From NCBI GenBank assembly GCA_004298675.1, contig SCRI01000037.1:1-11797 (forward strand): a stretch of 11,797 nucleotides of DNA, written 5' to 3'. Position 1 is the stretch's first letter, and each line of letters starts with the position of its first letter. This stretch comes from a bacterium. Its GTDB lineage: Bacteria; Vulcanimicrobiota; Vulcanimicrobiia; Vulcanimicrobiales; SCRA01. Both the position numbers and the translations under genes were made by a program. The notes under the pieces are model-generated. The model was not told where the DNA came from. It ran no database searches and worked only from the letters and a program-made list of their open reading frames with translations. This document shows, in pieces, positions 4,123 through 10,747 of the stretch.

Positions 4123-5186
4123 CGGTCAGCTCCGAGCTAGGATCCAGCCGGCGCAACAACGACGATGCTTATGTCTCCGAAGGCATCGCCCCGGGCGCGA
4201 CGCTGTTGGCGGTGGCGGACGGCTTCGGGCGCATCACCAACGGTGCCGCGGGCCCTGCGGCACTAGGCCTGGCGCTGGTCCGCGAATATCTGCGCCGCCA
4301 CATGCGCGGATCGTACTTGTCACGATCGCTCTCGATCCCCGAGTTGCGCCAAACGCTCTTGGCGGCCTTGCGTCATGCCAACGGCCGCCTCTACGCGCAG
4401 AGCGGATCGCACGAGGACTTCGTGGCCGGTGGTGCGGCGCTGACATTGGTGCTCGTGGTTGGGTCGCACGCCTACGTTGCCCACGCGGGTGATGCACGTG
4501 CCTATATCCTGCGGGGCAGCTCCTTGCGCCGCCTCACCGTCGACGACTCGCTCTTCGCGGATCTGGTCCCGCATGGCGGGGCCGGCTCGCAGGCGCCGCG
4601 CGCGCTGCTGACGCGGACGCTGGGAACGCAGCCGGCGCTGGAGGCCTCCGTCGTCCACTTCGAGCTCACGCCCGACGACCAACTGTTACTGTGCACGGAC
4701 GGCATCCACAAGTTCGTTTCGGAGGAGGAGATCCGCGCGGCGCTCCAAGGGCATGCCAATGCGGCCGATGCCGTGCACCGGCTGGCGGTGCTCGCTCGCA
4801 GCCGCGGCGGCGCCGATAACGGCACCGCGTTGCTGGGGCGGCAGCTCAATCTGCACACGCAACCGATCGCGCCGGGCGCGCAGCCGCTGGCCTTCAATCT
4901 TTCACGCGTGATGGCCTCGCTGGCGCTGGTGTGGCTGCTGCTGCTGACGGTCATCAGCTTTCGTCTGCTCTCGTCGCACGACTACTTCACGGTGGTGCGA
5001 GGGCACGTGGCGTTGGCTCAGGGCTATCCCACCGACATCTTCGGCGTGCACACGTGGCGCGTGCTGAAAGTCTACGACGTGCAGGCAAACCGTCTGCAAG
5101 AACAAGCGCTGGCAACGCTCGAAGAGGCGCCGGTCGCTTCGGAGGAGCAGGCGGATCGTATCATCGAGCGGCTCTCTGCCAAGTAA
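4113..5186 (+). CDS. PP2C-type Ser/Thr protein phosphatase with membrane anchor (PstP type)
   Basis: Dephosphorylates Ser/Thr-phosphorylated proteins using a two-metal centre in the cytosol. The catalytic domain covers about residues 1-245. Metal-binding acidic residues are seen in NNDD (Asp18), VADGFG (Asp36), CTDG (Asp196) and GADN (Asp235), and HAGDARAY at 124-131 is typical. One membrane span (about 265-286) follows, then an outer domain of about 70 residues resembling the small extracytoplasmic part of actinobacterial PstP. The canonical DGMGGH motif reads DGFGRI here, a changed loop next to an intact metal ligand. The GTG start at 4113 has GGGGA seven bases upstream and overlaps the FHA gene by ten bases. 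It should reverse the phosphorylation read by the two FHA proteins; no kinase gene lies in this window. Confidence 0.9.
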   Translation: MEVAVSSELGSSRRNNDDAYVSEGIAPGATLLAVADGFGRITNGAAGPAALGLALVREYLRRHMRGSYLSRSLSIPELRQTLLAALRHANGRLYAQSGSHEDFVAGGAALTLVLVVGSHAYVAHAGDARAYILRGSSLRRLTVDDSLFADLVPHGGAGSQAPRALLTRTLGTQPALEASVVHFELTPDDQLLLCTDGIHKFVSEEEIRAALQGHANAADAVHRLAVLARSRGGADNGTALLGRQLNLHTQPIAPGAQPLAFNLSRVMASLALVWLLLLTVISFRLLSSHDYFTVVRGHVALAQGYPTDIFGVHTWRVLKVYDVQANRLQEQALATLEEAPVASEEQADRIIERLSAK

Positions 5187-5199
5187 CCTCGCGCTCAGG

Positions 5200-6429
5200 T
5201 TGCTCCCCACGGTCGCGGCGCTAGTCGTCGACGCCTTCGCGCTCTCGATCTTGCCTCCGGATGCGCTCTGGCGGCCGTTGCTGTGGATCGCGGCGGCGTT
5301 GGCGTTGCTCTGGGTCGGTATCCAGCCGGCGGGTGACGATCGCGACGATCTGCTGCCGGCATTAGCCGTGCTCGTGGCGGGCGTCGGTTTGATGGAGGTC
5401 ACGCGCCTCTCCGGGGAGTTGGGGCGCCGTCAAGAGATCGGCATGGTCGTCTCGCTGGCCCTCTTGGTGCTGCTGCGCCCGCTCTTGGAGGGCTACCGGC
5501 GCTGGGCGCGGGTGAAGTATCTCTGGATGCTGCTCTCGGTCGCGCTCTTCGCGATCGTCGCCGTGGCCGGTACCGAGGTCAACGGCGCCAAACTCTGGTT
5601 GCGTTTCGCGGGGGTCTCGTTCCAGCCCGTGGAGCTGATCAAGCTCTTTCTCGTCTTCTTCTTGGCGGCCTATCTGGCGGAGAAGGGGGAGGTGATCGCG
5701 CAGAGCGCGCCGTGGAAGCCGCGCGAGAATCTGCGCTACCTCGGGCCGCTCGTGCTGGGCTGGGGCAGCGCGATGGCGATCCTCGTACTCCAGCACGACG
5801 TCGGCATGGCGGTACTCTTTCTCGGCGCGTTCGTGACGATGACGTACGCGGCCACGCGGCGTCTGGATATCGTGTTCAGCAGCATTGCCGCCTTCGCCGC
5901 CGCAGCGATCGTGGCGGCGCGTTACTTTGCCTACGTACGCGTGCGCGTGGACGTGTGGCTCCATCCCTTCGCCGATCCGTTGGGGAGCGGCTACCAGGCC
6001 CTGATGGGGCTCTTCTCGCTGGCGGCGGGGGGACTCTTCGGCACGGGGTTGCGTCTCGGGCATCCCGCCATCCCCGACGTCGCGACCGACTACATCTACG
6101 CCGCATGGAGCGAGGAGACGGGGTTGCTGGGCGCGGTCATCCTGCTCGCGCTCTATGCGGTGCTCTTCGCGCGCGCCTTCGGCGTGGCGCGCCGCCGCCC
6201 CGATCTGTACTCGAAGTTGCTGGTGGTGGGGCTAGCATCGATGTTGGGCCTGCAGATCTTCGTCATCGTCGGCGGCGTCTTGCGGGTGCTGCCGCTCACC
6301 GGCATCACGCTGCCGTTCATTTCGTACGGCGGCAGCTCGCTGGTTGCCAACTTTCTCCTGGTCGACCTCGTCTGGATCGCCAGCGGCTTGGGCGTGAGAC
6401 TGCGCGGCGCGGCCGGGATACGTTCGTGA
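5200..6429 (+). CDS. SEDS peptidoglycan polymerase, FtsW/RodA family
   Basis: An integral membrane glycosyltransferase that polymerises lipid II, normally together with a class B PBP. The 409 residues contain about ten membrane segments and the SEDS signatures: NGAKLWL at 128-134, QHDVGMA at 198-204, the loop with TDYIYAAWSEETG at 296-308 including Asp297 (position of the catalytic Asp in RodA) and Glu305, and LPFISYGGSSL at 371-381. I cannot decide between FtsW and RodA. The position after the phosphatase gene matches rodA in actinobacteria. The start is uncertain: TTG at 5200 is the only usual start codon near the first membrane segment and it lacks a good ribosome binding site. The stop overlaps the next gene's start in a GTGA junction. 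Confidence 0.92.
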   Translation: MLPTVAALVVDAFALSILPPDALWRPLLWIAAALALLWVGIQPAGDDRDDLLPALAVLVAGVGLMEVTRLSGELGRRQEIGMVVSLALLVLLRPLLEGYRRWARVKYLWMLLSVALFAIVAVAGTEVNGAKLWLRFAGVSFQPVELIKLFLVFFLAAYLAEKGEVIAQSAPWKPRENLRYLGPLVLGWGSAMAILVLQHDVGMAVLFLGAFVTMTYAATRRLDIVFSSIAAFAAAAIVAARYFAYVRVRVDVWLHPFADPLGSGYQALMGLFSLAAGGLFGTGLRLGHPAIPDVATDYIYAAWSEETGLLGAVILLALYAVLFARAFGVARRRPDLYSKLLVVGLASMLGLQIFVIVGGVLRVLPLTGITLPFISYGGSSLVANFLLVDLVWIASGLGVRLRGAAGIRS

Positions 6430-6899: not shown

Positions 6900-7916
6900 A
6901 TGGCGAAACGAAAGAAGCGCGGCTCACCAGCCGGCGGACCAACGCTCCTGCAGACCACGCTGCTGATCGTGCTCGCGCTGGTCGTCGGAGCGCTGGCTGC
7001 CAGTTACGTGAACCATCGCGCGGCCGTGCATGCGCGACATCCCAGGGCGCTGGCGCCCACCGCAACGGCACGCGCCGTGCCCGTCGCGGTGGCGAGTACC
7101 GCTGCGGTTGCCGCGCCACGGCCGGTGCGCACGCCGGTGGAACGCACCCCGCCGCCTCCCGCCTGGGACGGGCTGGAGCGCAACGCTCGTGTCGCAGCGG
7201 TGCCGCGCCCCGTCAGCACCACGCAAGCCGGCGGCATCCATCTGCCGAAGGTGAGCGGCGCGCCGCGCGTGGCGATCATCGTCGACGATTGCGGGCAATG
7301 GATCGATACCGAGCGCGGCTTTATTGCGCTGCCGGTTCCGCTGACGCTCTCGGTCCTGCCCGAGGTGCGCTACACCCGGACGATCGCGCGTGAGGCGCAG
7401 GACGCCGGCAAGGGAGTCATGCTCCACCTGCCCATGGAGCCGCTCTCACACATCAACCCCGGGCCGGGGAAGGTCACGACCGAGATGAGCGATGGGGCGA
7501 TCGTCGCGCAGGTGGAGAGCGACCTCGCGCAAGTCCCGCTGGCCGCGGGAGTCAACAACCACGAAGGCAGCGAGGCCACCGCCGATCCGCGCGTGATGCG
7601 TGACGTCATGGGCGTGCTCAAATCGAATGACAAGTTCTTCATCGACTCGCTGACGACGGGAAAATCGGTGGCTGGAACACTGGCCGGCGAGGACGGCATC
7701 CCAACGGCGTCGCGCGATGTCTTCCTCGACAACCGTGAGAGCGTCAGCTATACCGAGTCGATGCTGGAGCAGCTCGTCGAGGTGGCCCAGCGCAAGGGTT
7801 CGGCCATCGCCATCGGTCATCCGCGGCCCACCACGCTGGAGGCTTTGCGGGAGATGATCCCGCGCATGGAGTCGGCCGGCGTGCAGTTCGTCTTGGCGCG
7901 CGATCTCGTCCGCTAA
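6900..7916 (+). CDS. Divergent polysaccharide deacetylase, YibQ family
   Basis: A NodB-like fold protein of the divergent polysaccharide deacetylase family (YibQ), likely acting on envelope glycans outside the cytoplasmic membrane. A basic N-terminus (KRKKR) leads into one membrane span (about residues 16-36), then an Ala/Pro-rich linker (about 40-120), then the catalytic-like domain (122-338). Family landmarks are VAIIVDDCG at 124-132 with Asp129/Asp130, LHLPMEP at 175-181, GVNNHEGS at 217-224, FFIDS at 246-250, Arg272 and Asp277, and IGHPRP at 305-310. GVNNHMGS is usual, so Glu222 is a small departure. In E. coli yibQ lies next to envC, which activates cell-wall amidases; here the gene follows a division-type block, in keeping with an envelope role. 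Its substrate is unknown. It lies 27 bases after the lipoprotein gene. Confidence 0.88.
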   Translation: MAKRKKRGSPAGGPTLLQTTLLIVLALVVGALAASYVNHRAAVHARHPRALAPTATARAVPVAVASTAAVAAPRPVRTPVERTPPPPAWDGLERNARVAAVPRPVSTTQAGGIHLPKVSGAPRVAIIVDDCGQWIDTERGFIALPVPLTLSVLPEVRYTRTIAREAQDAGKGVMLHLPMEPLSHINPGPGKVTTEMSDGAIVAQVESDLAQVPLAAGVNNHEGSEATADPRVMRDVMGVLKSNDKFFIDSLTTGKSVAGTLAGEDGIPTASRDVFLDNRESVSYTESMLEQLVEVAQRKGSAIAIGHPRPTTLEALREMIPRMESAGVQFVLARDLVR

Positions 7917-8052
7917 GCGACTCAGCGCCACCTAGTGCGAAGGTCTTACGCCGCCTGGGCTGCATGAAGGTGGCCGGTACAAGCTAGCCGCTGTATCGTT
8001 CGAACAGCGGGCGGAAACGTCCGCGTGTGTGCCTCTCTCTTGGAGGATCTGT
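7917..8052 (+). promoter_or_regulatory. Structured leader upstream of the small peptide gene
   Basis: This 136-base gap, among the longest in the window, holds three inverted repeats. GCCACCT at 7927-7933 pairs with AGGTGGC at 7968-7974. CCGCTGT at 7988-7994 pairs with ACAGCGG at 8004-8010, closing a nine-base loop. GCGGA at 8011-8015 pairs with TCCGC at 8020-8024 around AACG. The last two stand side by side, then a pyrimidine-rich tract leads to the ribosome binding site. This may be a terminator region for the deacetylase gene, an operator for the peptide gene or a folded 5' UTR; no known riboswitch class is recognised. A TATCGT at 7994-7999 could be a -10 but lies within the second repeat and has no good -35. 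Confidence 0.4.
8042..8046 (+). promoter_or_regulatory. Strong Shine-Dalgarno sequence for the small peptide gene
   Basis: GGAGG lies six bases before the ATG at 8053, ideal sequence and spacing. Most genes in this window have weak or no such site, so its strength supports the 37-codon frame as a real, well-translated gene. Confidence 0.75.
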
Positions 8053-8166
8053 ATGGCGTACCTTGCACCAGAGATAGTCAGCAGCTATCTCGTACCGAGC
8101 CTCTATGCGGCGGCTAGCGGCTTTTGCAGCATCAGCACGAGCGACGATAACTGCACGGACGACTAA
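8053..8166 (+). CDS. 37-residue peptide, candidate RiPP precursor
   Basis: I do not recognise this peptide from a known family. It begins MAYLAPEIVSSYLVP and ends in a polar stretch. Residues 3-20 consist of two related nine-residue units (YLAPEIVSS and YLVPSLYAA), followed by a linker (ASGF) and a tail at 25-37 with Cys25 and Cys34, several Ser/Thr, Asn33 and four Asp. There is no Lys, Arg or His, so it is strongly acidic. This split into a hydrophobic, conserved-looking front and a Cys/Ser/Thr/Asp-rich end resembles leader and core of a RiPP precursor. The strong ribosome binding site, the hairpin directly after the stop and the dioxygenase gene downstream support this. About 27 of 37 codons end in G or C, in line with the genome's base use. 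It could instead be a regulatory leader peptide or a small unmodified peptide. Confidence 0.65.
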   Translation: MAYLAPEIVSSYLVPSLYAAASGFCSISTSDDNCTDD

Positions 8167-8183
8167 GCCGGAACGTTCAAAAA

Positions 8184-8207
8184 GGGTCCACGCCCAGGCG
8201 TGGGCCC
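8184..8207 (+). terminator. Terminator-like hairpin between peptide and dioxygenase genes
   Basis: A ten-pair stem (GGGTCCACGC, loop CCAG, GCGTGGGCCC, with one G-T pair) begins 17 bases after the peptide stop. It is preceded by AAAAA and followed by TTACTCTCT, a weak, broken T-run. It probably acts as a partial terminator, giving more transcript of the peptide than of the enzyme, or as an RNA-stabilising 3' end. Confidence 0.65.
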
Positions 8208-8253
8208 TTACTCTCTAGCAGCGGCGCGGGTGGGCGCCCCGGGGGAGAGATCC

Positions 8254-9465
8254 ATGTGGAGCCGAGAACCGAACGAACGCAGCGTCTTCGCCTGGCTGCT
8301 GTCACCGCATACGATCGAGGAGTTTGCGAGCTGGTATTACGAACGCGCGCCACTGCTCGTTTCACGGAGTTCTCCGGATTACTACCGGCGCTGCTTTAAT
8401 CTGACCGAGTTGGAGCGCGTGCTGTACGGCTCCGAGGTCGACTCGGAGGACCTGCGCGTGGTCAAGAACGGGACGCCCGCACGTCCCGAGACCTATCTGC
8501 GCGAAGGTTCACGTCGCGTGGACGCCGATCGCGTCAGCGCCCTCTTCGCGCACGGCTGCACCGTGGTGCTCGACAAAGTTCAAGCGTATTCCGGCCCGGT
8601 CCTCGAGCTTTGCCGCGGCCTCGAAGTGTGTCTGCGGCATCGGGTCAACGCCAATCTCTACCTCACGCCGTCCGGCAGCCAGGGTTTTGCCGCGCACTAC
8701 GACACCCATGACACCGTTATCTTGCAGGTGGAGGGGGCCAAGCATTGGCGTGTCTACGGTGCGCCGGTCGAGGTGCCGCTGCTGGCGCAGAAGCATGACA
8801 AGAAGAAGCATCTCGCCGGCGAGGTTGAGATCGACGTGGTGCTGCGCCCGGGTGATCTACTGTACTTGCCGCGCGGCGTCATGCATGAAGCGGTGTGCAC
8901 GGACGAGTTCTCTCTGCACGTGACGCTTGGTCTCCACCCGATTCTCTGGATCGACGTACTCGAAGAGGCCGCCAAGCGCGGCGGTCTCGACGAGGCGATG
9001 CTGCGGCGCTCCGCGGCCGAGGTGGAGCTGGCCGGCGGCGCCGGCGGTGAGGCGCTGAGTGAAGCGATTGGGCGCACCTTCTCGCCGCAACGGCTGTTGG
9101 AGACGCTGCAGGATCTGCGCAGCAGTTGGGTGGTGCAGCGCCGGAACGTGCTCGACGGACAATTGCGGCAGTTGGTGAGTCTCGCCAGTTTGACGCCGGA
9201 CTCACGCCTGGCGCTGCGCGCTCATCTCTTGTACGAGCTACGAGAGGACGAGGCCGGCACGCAGTTGCTGTTCTCGGGAAAAGTCGTGCGCTTGCCGCGT
9301 TGGGCGGCGGCGATGATACGCGATCTCGCCGCCGTGCCGAGCCTGGAGGTCGCGGTGCTCGCTCGCTACGGCGCGGAGGCGCCGGCCGTTGCGCGCCGTC
9401 TGGTCGAGGAGGGCTTCGCCGTTCGGGTGGAGTCCCAGATGCCGGCGCGCGCGCTGGTTCGCTGA
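8254..9465 (+). CDS. JmjC/cupin_4 2-oxoglutarate-dependent dioxygenase
   Basis: An Fe(II)/2-oxoglutarate oxygenase of the cupin_4 (ribosomal oxygenase-like: RoxA/YcfD, NO66, MINA53) family, expected to hydroxylate a protein or peptide side chain in the cytosol. The JmjC core (about residues 100-230) shows the iron triad His148, Asp150 (HYD) and His211 in LPRGVMHEA. Lys163 lies 15 residues after the first His, where NO66 and MINA53 carry the 2-oxoglutarate-binding Lys. A helical dimerisation region and a winged-helix-like C-terminus (about 300-403) complete the 403 residues. The ATG at 8254 is preceded by GGGGGAG at a six-base spacing; a GTG at 8200 would lie inside the hairpin and add residues unlike the family. 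Known members act on Arg or His of ribosomal proteins, but the position after a 37-residue peptide gene suggests a peptide substrate here. A ribosomal target remains possible. Confidence 0.9.
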   Translation: MWSREPNERSVFAWLLSPHTIEEFASWYYERAPLLVSRSSPDYYRRCFNLTELERVLYGSEVDSEDLRVVKNGTPARPETYLREGSRRVDADRVSALFAHGCTVVLDKVQAYSGPVLELCRGLEVCLRHRVNANLYLTPSGSQGFAAHYDTHDTVILQVEGAKHWRVYGAPVEVPLLAQKHDKKKHLAGEVEIDVVLRPGDLLYLPRGVMHEAVCTDEFSLHVTLGLHPILWIDVLEEAAKRGGLDEAMLRRSAAEVELAGGAGGEALSEAIGRTFSPQRLLETLQDLRSSWVVQRRNVLDGQLRQLVSLASLTPDSRLALRAHLLYELREDEAGTQLLFSGKVVRLPRWAAAMIRDLAAVPSLEVAVLARYGAEAPAVARRLVEEGFAVRVESQMPARALVR

Positions 9466-9467
9466 AT

Positions 9468-9479
9468 CTTCGTACGAAG
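9468..9479. repeat. 12-base perfect palindrome and short direct repeat between genes
   Basis: CTTCGTACGAAG is a perfect 12-base palindrome starting two bases after the dioxygenase stop. Just downstream, GCCTCTGG occurs twice (9488-9495 and 9498-9505), ten bases apart, one helical turn. This could be a regulator site for the next gene. It could also be chance, and no promoter can be read with confidence. Confidence 0.3.
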
Positions 9480-9519
9480 CGCTCTGCGCCTCTGGTAGCC
9501 TCTGGAGTGAGGTTGACCG

Positions 9520-10170
9520 ATGCGCTTGCCCTCCGCGGATGTATTCGAACTGCTCCATCGCTACGGTGTCCGCACCGCGCCGCGTCTTTACGCCAGTACC
9601 CTCGAGGATGTCGTGGCCTTCGCGCGGGGCGGGCCCGTGCTGTTGCGAGCGGAGGGCGCGGATACCGCATCCGGCGAGCTGGAGGCCGATGGCGAGGAGG
9701 AGATCCGTCGTGCCTACGAGCGCCTGTGGCCCGTCGCGGTGCAGCACGAGCCGGCGCTGCTGCTGGTGCTGCGCCGCCCGCCCGCTGGGCCGGTCGTAGC
9801 GATCGACGCCGCGATCGACGAGCATGGCGCATTGGTTCTGACGCTGCTGGCGGGCCAAGCGGCCTCGCATGGCTACCCATCGACTCGCCGTGAGGCGGAT
9901 GAGATGGTGGAGCGTGTGCCAGGCTGGCTCTCTCTGCTCCACGGCGAGCGCGGGAGGAGTATGCTCTCGCACGTGTTGGTGAAGGCCGCGCGCCTCTTCG
10001 GCGACATGGAGCTGGAGCGGATGCGGCTGGCGCCCGTGGTGATCTACGAGAACACGTACGAGGTGGTCGACGCGCAGATGGAGGCCAGCCGCGCCATTGA
10101 GGTTCGCCACGAATTGACGCGGCGCGCGCACGACGTCAAGGGGTACTATAAGCCCTCGGGGCGCCAATAG
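9520..10170 (+). CDS. Degenerate ATP-grasp (acyl-CoA synthetase beta-like) protein
   Basis: A 216-residue protein that resembles the ATP-grasp_5 half of ADP-forming acetyl/acyl-CoA synthetases in layout. It has an N-terminal helix and LHRYGVRTAPRLYA (12-25), then the strand PVLLRAEG (39-46), a central domain, and a C-terminal stretch with RREADEMVERV, LLHGERGR and APVVIYENTYEVVDAQ (123-186). The likeness is from remembered family patterns. The functional motifs look lost: the usual Lys of the PVVLK strand is Arg43, the HKSDVGG loop is absent, and the metal-binding LDINP reads MRLAP at 168-172. It is therefore probably not an active ligase, or it has been repurposed. The ATG at 9520 has GTGAGGT seven bases upstream. 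It lies 54 bases after the dioxygenase gene in the same direction, and its last 35 bases overlap the convergent metallopeptidase gene. Confidence 0.65.
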   Translation: MRLPSADVFELLHRYGVRTAPRLYASTLEDVVAFARGGPVLLRAEGADTASGELEADGEEEIRRAYERLWPVAVQHEPALLLVLRRPPAGPVVAIDAAIDEHGALVLTLLAGQAASHGYPSTRREADEMVERVPGWLSLLHGERGRSMLSHVLVKAARLFGDMELERMRLAPVVIYENTYEVVDAQMEASRAIEVRHELTRRAHDVKGYYKPSGRQ

Positions 10171-10747
10171 TCAGCGCCTGGATGAAGTCGCGCGCGAAGA
10201 GCCGCTCCACGTAGTCGAAGGCGCGCACGTCGACGTCGCGCAAACGGTGACGTGTGGCGGCCGGCCAAGGCGAACGGTGGTCATTGGCTTCCACGTAGGC
10301 GCGCACGATCTCGGCAAAAAATTCGTCGGGTGCCGTGGCGGCATAGGGCGTGATGAACGACGTGGCCGTGAAGTAGATCGTACGCAGATCGCGGTCTTCG
10401 CTGGAGCGATAGCCGCCGTCGCCAAGCGCGCAGTCCAAAGCGTGGCCGAACTCGTGGGCTACGGCCAATGGTGAGCGCGAGCGCAGGTACGCGGTGCGCT
10501 CCTCGACCACGAAGAGGCCGGCGGGTGGGGCGGGCCAGGTATCGAGGTGCGGGGCAAGGTCGCGCAGGCGCGGCGAGCGGGCGGTGTAGCGCTCGCCGCG
10601 AGCAAGCGCGACCACGCGTACGCCACGCGCCCGTGCCAGGCGTAACGCCGGCAAACCGAAGCGCGAGAGCCTGCGGCTCAGGGTGAGCTTCGCGGCGGGA
10701 GAAGGGGCGTCAACCAGGCTTTCGGCGAGCGTCGTGGCGTCGAACAT
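10136..10747 (-). CDS. Zinc metallopeptidase, anthrax lethal factor/PPEP-like (M34 type)
   Basis: A 203-residue predicted gluzincin. Zinc ligands are His98 and His102 of HEFGH with catalytic Glu99. The third ligand is probably Glu142 in DEFFAE, and Tyr135 lies seven residues before it, the same Tyr-to-Glu spacing as Tyr728/Glu735 of anthrax lethal factor. The pattern YAxxxxDEFFAExxRxY is typical of the lethal factor C-terminal/ATLF domain, which also includes the Pro-Pro endopeptidases. There is no signal peptide or membrane segment, so it is likely cytosolic, unlike the secreted toxin relatives. Residues 1-75 are Arg- and Leu-rich with no domain I know. The ATG at 10747 has a TACGAT box eight bases upstream. 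It is tail-to-tail with the ATP-grasp-like gene. Substrate unknown; a function in leader removal from the nearby peptide is only a possibility. Confidence 0.78.
   Translation of the reverse strand: MFDATTLAESLVDAPSPAAKLTLSRRLSRFGLPALRLARARGVRVVALARGERYTARSPRLRDLAPHLDTWPAPPAGLFVVEERTAYLRSRSPLAVAHEFGHALDCALGDGGYRSSEDRDLRTIYFTATSFITPYAATAPDEFFAEIVRAYVEANDHRSPWPAATRHRLRDVDVRAFDYVERLFARDFIQALTIGAPRAYSTP

Follow-up and report, generated by a model that had tools for sequence, protein, structure and literature searches.

Genomic organization of the peptide and oxygenase genes

We identified a gene for a 37-residue peptide, followed by genes for a JmjC-type oxygenase and an ATP-grasp-like protein, in an 11,797-nucleotide stretch of bacterial DNA (contig SCRI01000037.1 of assembly GCA_004298675.1, phylum Vulcanimicrobiota), here called the window. 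The source is a draft genome of 3.0 Mb in 87 contigs. The three genes and a hairpin between the first two all lie on the + strand, as described in a first-pass annotation of this DNA, which had proposed that the locus encodes a ribosomally synthesized and post-translationally modified peptide (RiPP) hydroxylated by the oxygenase.

The peptide (MAYLAPEIVSSYLVPSLYAAASGFCSISTSDDNCTDD) is encoded from an ATG at position 8053 to a TAA stop codon at 8164-8166, with GGAGG directly 5' of the gene. Arginine and histidine are absent, as the first-pass annotation had noted, and lysine is absent as well. An orthologue that is 57% identical is found at the same location in a sister species (G001), and a search of 149 genomes of the phylum gave peptide homologues in G000 and G001 only, all other matches having E-values above 0.01. 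Comparison of the window peptide with its G001 orthologue gave proportions of changed synonymous (pS) and nonsynonymous (pN) sites of 0.69 and 0.27, respectively, and a ratio of nonsynonymous to synonymous substitution rates (dN/dS) of about 0.18. In about 1,840 stop-free simulations of random substitution with the same number of changes, a pN/pS as low was never reached. Because the orthologue lies at the same place and pN/pS is below that of all simulations, the 37-codon frame, noted earlier along with its strong ribosome binding site, is a real gene under protein-level selection.

The pN was 0.14 for residues 1-17 and 0.37 for residues 18-37 (two sequences only). The second half is Asp-rich and variable, and D32, N33, D36 and D37 are unchanged between the two peptides. 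Asp makes up 16% of the last two thirds of the window peptide, and the core-like part also contains Cys, Ser, Thr and Tyr. This conserved N-terminal and variable C-terminal pattern is similar to that of a leader and core, and a selected small gene beside a modifying enzyme, here separated by 87 nt, agrees with the RiPP-precursor layout suggested before.

The 12-bp stem between the two genes begins 16 nt past the stop codon of the peptide gene (fold z -3.4), and a hairpin of different sequence is located at the same place in G001 (z -2.6). It had been described as a leaky terminator. The hairpin itself is real, but its role as terminator is an interpretation, because no U-run is present on the + strand and a terminator scan gave a match on the - strand only. 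A Rfam search gave no match.

The genes behave as a block. In G001 the block occupies the same place, between flanks that are about 79% identical. In the congener G003 the flanking deacetylase and metallopeptidase genes abut, and the peptide, oxygenase and ATP-grasp-like genes are all absent; G002 also lacks the peptide and the oxygenase. The peptide is found in both JmjC-bearing genomes and in neither of the congeners without JmjC. Among these congeneric genomes the block occurs as a whole or not at all, in a small sample (two of four) that includes the fragmented assemblies of G002 and G003.

The oxygenase carries a C-terminal domain with an RRE-like fold

The oxygenase matches PF08007 (JmjC_2, or cupin_4) with an E-value of 7e-30 and is about 65% identical to its counterpart in G001. 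It was annotated as a complete cupin_4 enzyme with His148, Asp150, His211 and Lys163, and all four residues are indeed invariant in an alignment of 19 homologues. The protein has the features of the JmjC_2 superfamily, namely the HxD...H iron triad, the lysine that binds 2-oxoglutarate (2OG), and a JmjC_2 domain with a winged helix. A contig scan using the window JmjC sequence alone as a query gave no matches. An AlphaFold2 model of the oxygenase (mean per-residue confidence, pLDDT, 87.8) matched human NO66 (Z 32), human MINA53 (Z 30) and YcfD (Z 19-20) over the full length, and Bacillus subtilis YxbC over residues 8-297 (Z 19.7, 267 residues).

Folded alone, the C-terminal domain was modelled with a pLDDT of 91.6 as strands followed by three helices. 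The best match was the winged helix of MINA53 (Z 11), and the winged helix of NO66 was matched as well. Among RiPP recognition elements (RREs), PbtF (Z 7.7) and PqqD (Z 7.2) were matched, with TbiB1 and TigE within Z 7.2-7.7, and a Foldseek search gave probabilities of 0.99 for PbtF and 0.93 for PqqD with weak E-values. As Z-scores under 8 may reflect a common arrangement, these matches support an RRE-like fold but not leader binding.

Asp-rich peptides are encoded next to JmjC_2 genes in several phyla

PF08007 was found in 19 of the 149 genomes of the phylum. A search for small frames upstream of related cupin_4 genes had been suggested as a check, and reading of the loci revealed precursor-like peptides directly 5' of several JmjC_2 genes. 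In G119 and G122 the peptide has the sequence MQSKTR..D.DV.TIWPN.P followed by tandem PDDxGRDD, peptides with tandem ADGG are present in G108, G051 and G094, and further precursor-like peptides are present in G139 and G128. In G125 (L042:335-9122) a JmjC_2 gene lies downstream of two paralogous 39-residue peptides, which end in GYYCYGDG and GYYCYGDN. The G125 cluster also contains a radical S-adenosylmethionine (SAM) protein, a second JmjC_2 protein, a DUF6895 protein and a squalene-hopene-cyclase-like protein, and has the appearance of a complete RiPP cluster.

A scan of public genomes for JmjC_2 added 80 loci. In many of these an Asp-rich upstream peptide led by a Shine-Dalgarno sequence was found, in Actinomycetota, Chloroflexota, Acidobacteriota, Pseudomonadota and Bacteroidota, and overall JmjC_2 genes with an Asp-rich, often tandem-repeat upstream peptide occur in at least six phyla. 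Of 76 called JmjC_2 genes, 25 are preceded by a peptide whose last two thirds contain 15% Asp or more; by the same criteria this holds for 5 of 476 neighbouring genes in the fetched loci (Fisher p 5e-19, an optimistic value as related loci were counted separately and the test ignores relatedness). One of the five control cases (L132) is a motif-bearing peptide that adjoins two JmjC_2 genes. When presence of the peptide was mapped on the JmjC_2 tree, 26 changes were required compared to a mean of 35 after shuffling, and none of 500 shuffles was as low; 26 changes still imply many gains or losses of the upstream peptide. Frames in L168 and L178 (other-frame shadows of repeats), the second frame in L123 and the frame in L146 (overlap with other genes) were excluded as evidence.

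The 41 C-terminal halves or cores examined all contain Asp, whereas 10% contain Cys and 17% Tyr. The count is partly circular, since Asp content helped to select most of these peptides, but the 11 from the phylum of the window were picked by their position. Both Arg and His are absent from 17 of the 41. The recurrence of Asp-rich cores in several phyla fits the earlier suggestion that neither Arg nor His is the target but another residue, for example Asp or Asn.

Many of the peptides share a leader motif near the N terminus, TL-[ST]-D-[DE]-[DEQ]-[IV]-x-[TV]. A matrix built from 26 peptides found the held-out peptides of L120 (score 20.5) and L128 (score 13.9, downstream of the oxygenase), and nothing at a score of 12 or higher in 171 kb of control loci. 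In eight loci (L118, L120, L123, L125, L126, L133, L144 and L159) an RRSFL-type signal for twin-arginine translocation (Tat) lies between the motif and the Asp-rich tail, and Tat models matched the peptides of L133 and L144. Peptides of this type end in DPDKK or DPIGGGSD repeats and could be modified peptides exported by the Tat system. Searches of the tested precursors against Pfam and NCBIfam gave no known family apart from the Tat models and low-complexity noise.

Directly 3' of the oxygenase gene, 27 loci carry a Suc_Fer-like gene (PF06999, named for L037), which is not universal in the group. In these loci, L163, L169 and L175 among them, the Asp-rich (mostly ADGG-type) peptide, JmjC_2 and the Suc_Fer-like gene make up a three-gene unit. 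The pairs of L163 and L169, from Geodermatophilus and Agromyces respectively, are of the repeat type. Motif-bearing Asp-rich peptides were also seen downstream of JmjC_2 (L132:6545 and L128:5224, both +), and searches limited to the upstream side therefore undercount. In L119 a small frame after JmjC_2 (about 5050-5280) resembles a winged-helix or RRE-like segment (FTVRDEGQNVVLSFCRRTIRFPKYVKPHLEF...LVLVRRLVREGFL). In L030 (G091) and L033 (G090) the frame of a signal-peptide protein, 155 residues long in L033, stops only a few bases short of JmjC_2; this protein could be another kind of substrate.

The window fits this group in the position of the peptide gene, its ribosome binding site, the acidic tail, selection on the peptide and the RRE-like oxygenase, and we describe it as probably working in the manner of the group. 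It has no tandem repeats. We do not assign it as a proven member because repeats and a Suc_Fer-like gene are missing, the leader match is not significant and the closest JmjC_2 genes of the same order lack a peptide.

The ATP-grasp-like gene and the flanking genes

The predicted 216-residue ATP-grasp-like protein is encoded as annotated (Table 1), and it matches only ATP-grasp_5 and acetate/hydroxypropionate-coenzyme A (CoA) ligase models in Pfam and NCBIfam. It is 59% identical to its counterpart in G001, where about 270 nt separate the gene from the oxygenase gene. Another 17 genomes of the phylum encode relatives, and a C-terminal AHDxKG-x-Y-xPSGRQ motif is conserved in this short family (L061-L076 and the window). 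In the loci read, these relatives are accompanied by HPF-like, phosphoketolase-like, universal-stress-like or permease genes, named by reading the sequences, and by JmjC in none; in G082 the relative adjoins the same metallopeptidase gene as in the window. The protein probably acts independently, in stress or metabolism, and either travelled along in the insertion or was a prior neighbour; its earlier inclusion in the pathway is not upheld by these neighbourhoods. A role as RiPP or graspetide ligase was judged unlikely, as no graspetide ligase match was obtained and the neighbourhoods of the relatives point elsewhere.

Left of the block the gene order is def, fmt, rsmB, two genes for FHA proteins, PP2C, FtsW/RodA, a small lipoprotein-like gene and a polysaccharide deacetylase gene, in which the names def through FtsW/RodA were given by reading translated frames and not by database search. 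To the right, a convergent HExxH metallopeptidase-like gene is followed by a PQQ-type beta-propeller gene. The metallopeptidase-like protein contains the motif AVAHEFGHALD and has only weak Pfam matches (M90/ATLF/Mx1-type); its gene is present in all four congeners, with two copies in G001.

Table 1. Features at the peptide-oxygenase locus, with positions in the window.
Feature	Position	Strand	Remarks
Ribosome binding site region of the peptide gene	8040..8052	+	TTGGAGGATCTGT; GGAGG also kept in G001
Gene for the 37-residue peptide	8053..8166	+	Leader-like residues 1-17, MAYLAPEIVSSYLVPSL; core-like residues 18-37, YAAASGFCSISTSDDNCTDD; orthologue in G001
12-bp hairpin between the peptide and oxygenase genes	8182..8209	+	Possible partial terminator or RNA stabiliser; no U-run
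JmjC_2 (PF08007) Fe(II)/2OG oxygenase, 403 residues	8254..9465	+	H148/D150/H211, K163
RRE-like winged-helix domain at the oxygenase C terminus (about residues 314-392)	9193..9429	+	Predicted fold and structural matches
ATP-grasp_5-like protein, 216 residues	9520..10170	+	PF13549, E 4e-8; within the insertion block; probably not a pathway enzyme
HExxH metallopeptidase-like protein, convergent flank, outside the unit	10136..10747	-	Kept in G003, which has no block
Divergent polysaccharide deacetylase (PF04748), left flank, outside the unit	6900..7916	+	Abuts the metallopeptidase gene in G003

A proposed minimal peptide-oxygenase pair and alternative explanations

We favour, with modest confidence, the explanation that the peptide and the oxygenase form a minimal RiPP-type pair, in which the JmjC_2 enzyme with its fused RRE-like domain would hydroxylate core residues of the 37-residue precursor, Asp or Asn being the likeliest targets. 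In this scheme the N-terminal half of the peptide, which is conserved, would be bound by the RRE-like domain, and at least one side chain in the acidic C-terminal half would be hydroxylated at the Fe(II)/2OG centre, with Asp (or Asn) in SDDNCTDD as the most likely residues. The hairpin may keep the output of the oxygenase gene below that of the peptide gene, and cleavage or export, if any, would come later. More tentatively, as a possibility for which we would claim somewhat less than an even chance, JmjC_2 proteins with a fused RRE-like domain could be a widespread and largely undescribed class of RiPP enzymes. Their substrates would be Asp-rich precursors, many of them built of tandem repeats, in which Asp (or Asn) is hydroxylated; these precursors have a common leader motif and, in several Acidobacteria and Alphaproteobacteria, a Tat export signal. 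The window would then be a short, non-repeat and divergent case.

Several observations weigh against a peptide-oxygenase pair. In the structural comparison NO66 and MINA53, which act on ribosomal proteins, are the best matches, and a winged helix that shares the RRE fold is not proof of leader binding. Homologous cupin_4 genes without an upstream peptide had been named beforehand as evidence against the proposal; in the tree, the seven JmjC_2 genes that branch closest to the window pair, all of the same order, lack such a peptide. The clade with the most precursors does not include the window JmjC, the best match to the leader motif (YLAPEIVSS) is not significant compared to shuffled sequences (P 0.31), and the window has no downstream Suc_Fer-like gene, no protease and no exporter. 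In addition, the selection estimate comes from only two orthologous peptides and the enrichment test takes no account of relatedness.

A RiPP pair with another chemistry, in which Ser, Thr, Cys, Tyr or Pro is oxidized or a ring is closed oxidatively, appears rather unlikely, though it has to be taken seriously. Cys, Ser, Thr and Tyr are available in the window core and the G125 cores end in GYYCYGD[GN], but Asp is the sole residue present in all 41 cores, within the limits of their selection. An alpha-ketoglutarate dioxygenase described by Xia in 2025, cited as reference 45 of PMC12710340, is said to close rings in RiPPs.

We consider it unlikely that the enzyme is an ordinary ribosomal oxygenase of the RoxA, NO66 or MINA53 type that acts on a ribosomal protein next to an unrelated peptide gene. 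The full-length structural matches, the winged helix common to all matched ribosomal oxygenases and the seven peptide-free relatives would fit such an enzyme. On the other hand, within the genus neither the peptide nor the oxygenase gene is found without the other, adjacent Asp-rich peptides are strongly enriched at other JmjC_2 genes, and a distribution over only 19 of the 149 genomes is unlike that of a housekeeping ribosome modifier.

That all three genes of the block serve one pathway, in which the ATP-grasp-like protein adds an amide or ester bond as in graspetides, is improbable: the genes lie on one strand and were gained or lost jointly at one site, with common flanks, but the protein resembles acetate-CoA ligases, its relatives occur near HPF, phosphoketolase and stress genes at loci without JmjC, and the gap to the oxygenase gene is wide in G001. 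Finally, a regulatory leader peptide whose translation sets how much transcription passes the hairpin and enters the oxygenase gene would account for the strong ribosome binding site, the short frame and the conserved hairpin close to its stop codon, but is very improbable given an amino-acid conservation far above what attenuation needs and the lack of a regulatory codon run, a U-run and a Rfam match.

Comparison with known systems

As stated in the first-pass annotation, the window contains no standard RiPP marker. Since the tested precursors also match no known family, annotation pipelines would probably miss such pairs. If the proposed pair is correct, an oxygenase family known mainly for ribosome hydroxylation would be tied to ribosomal peptide natural products, its RRE-like winged helix would gain a role in leader binding, and simple two-gene systems would be at hand for studying Asp/Asn hydroxylation. 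A peptide bearing many hydroxyaspartates could plausibly bind metals, and the finding would bear on the reason why human NO66 and MINA53 carry an RRE-like fold. No description of Asp-rich, motif-led JmjC_2 peptides was found in the open-access literature, subscription papers apart, and searches for papers on sucrase ferredoxin with JmjC, or cupin_4 with RiPP, gave none.

NO66 (RIOX1), MINA53 (RIOX2) and YcfD/RoxA hydroxylate His or Arg residues of ribosomal proteins. They resemble the window oxygenase in the full-length fold, the catalytic residues and the winged helix, but they have no adjacent substrate gene. YxbC of B. subtilis (7ZCC, 1VRB; deposited as a putative asparaginyl hydroxylase) shares the JmjC fold, but the match ends before the RRE-like domain of the window oxygenase.

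The use of JmjC enzymes in RiPP biosynthesis is not wholly new, as biphenomycin BipG and a remark in PMC12710340 already place them there. BipG, BpmG and PbsQ are JmjC or cupin-like ornithine hydroxylases of biphenomycin-type RiPPs (PMC12257519, PMC12707348), and as Fe(II)/2OG enzymes of the JmjC type that hydroxylate a side chain of a ribosomal precursor they are similar to the enzyme proposed here. Their target, however, is ornithine made by an arginase, and their clusters include a multinuclear non-heme iron oxidase (MNIO), a B12-radical SAM enzyme and a protease, whereas Arg is absent from the window peptide and no such enzyme is encoded nearby. A biphenomycin-type cluster was rejected for the window, in which no MNIO, arginase, B12-radical SAM enzyme or FRF core was found. 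In the relevant passage of PMC12710340, eukaryotic PF08007 proteins are described as having RRE-like folds, with bacterial homologues in RiPP-like contexts. These proteins belong to the same Pfam family and have the same RRE-like C-terminal domain as the window oxygenase; that passage makes no mention of a precursor family, a leader motif, an Asp-rich core, a Tat type or a partner gene. Beta-hydroxylation of Asp in ribosomal peptides is carried out by SmaO/SmaX and PesHI (PMC13097080, PMC13060819). These belong to other kinds of RiPP clusters, and the papers name no JmjC enzyme, but the reaction is the same as the one that we propose for the window.

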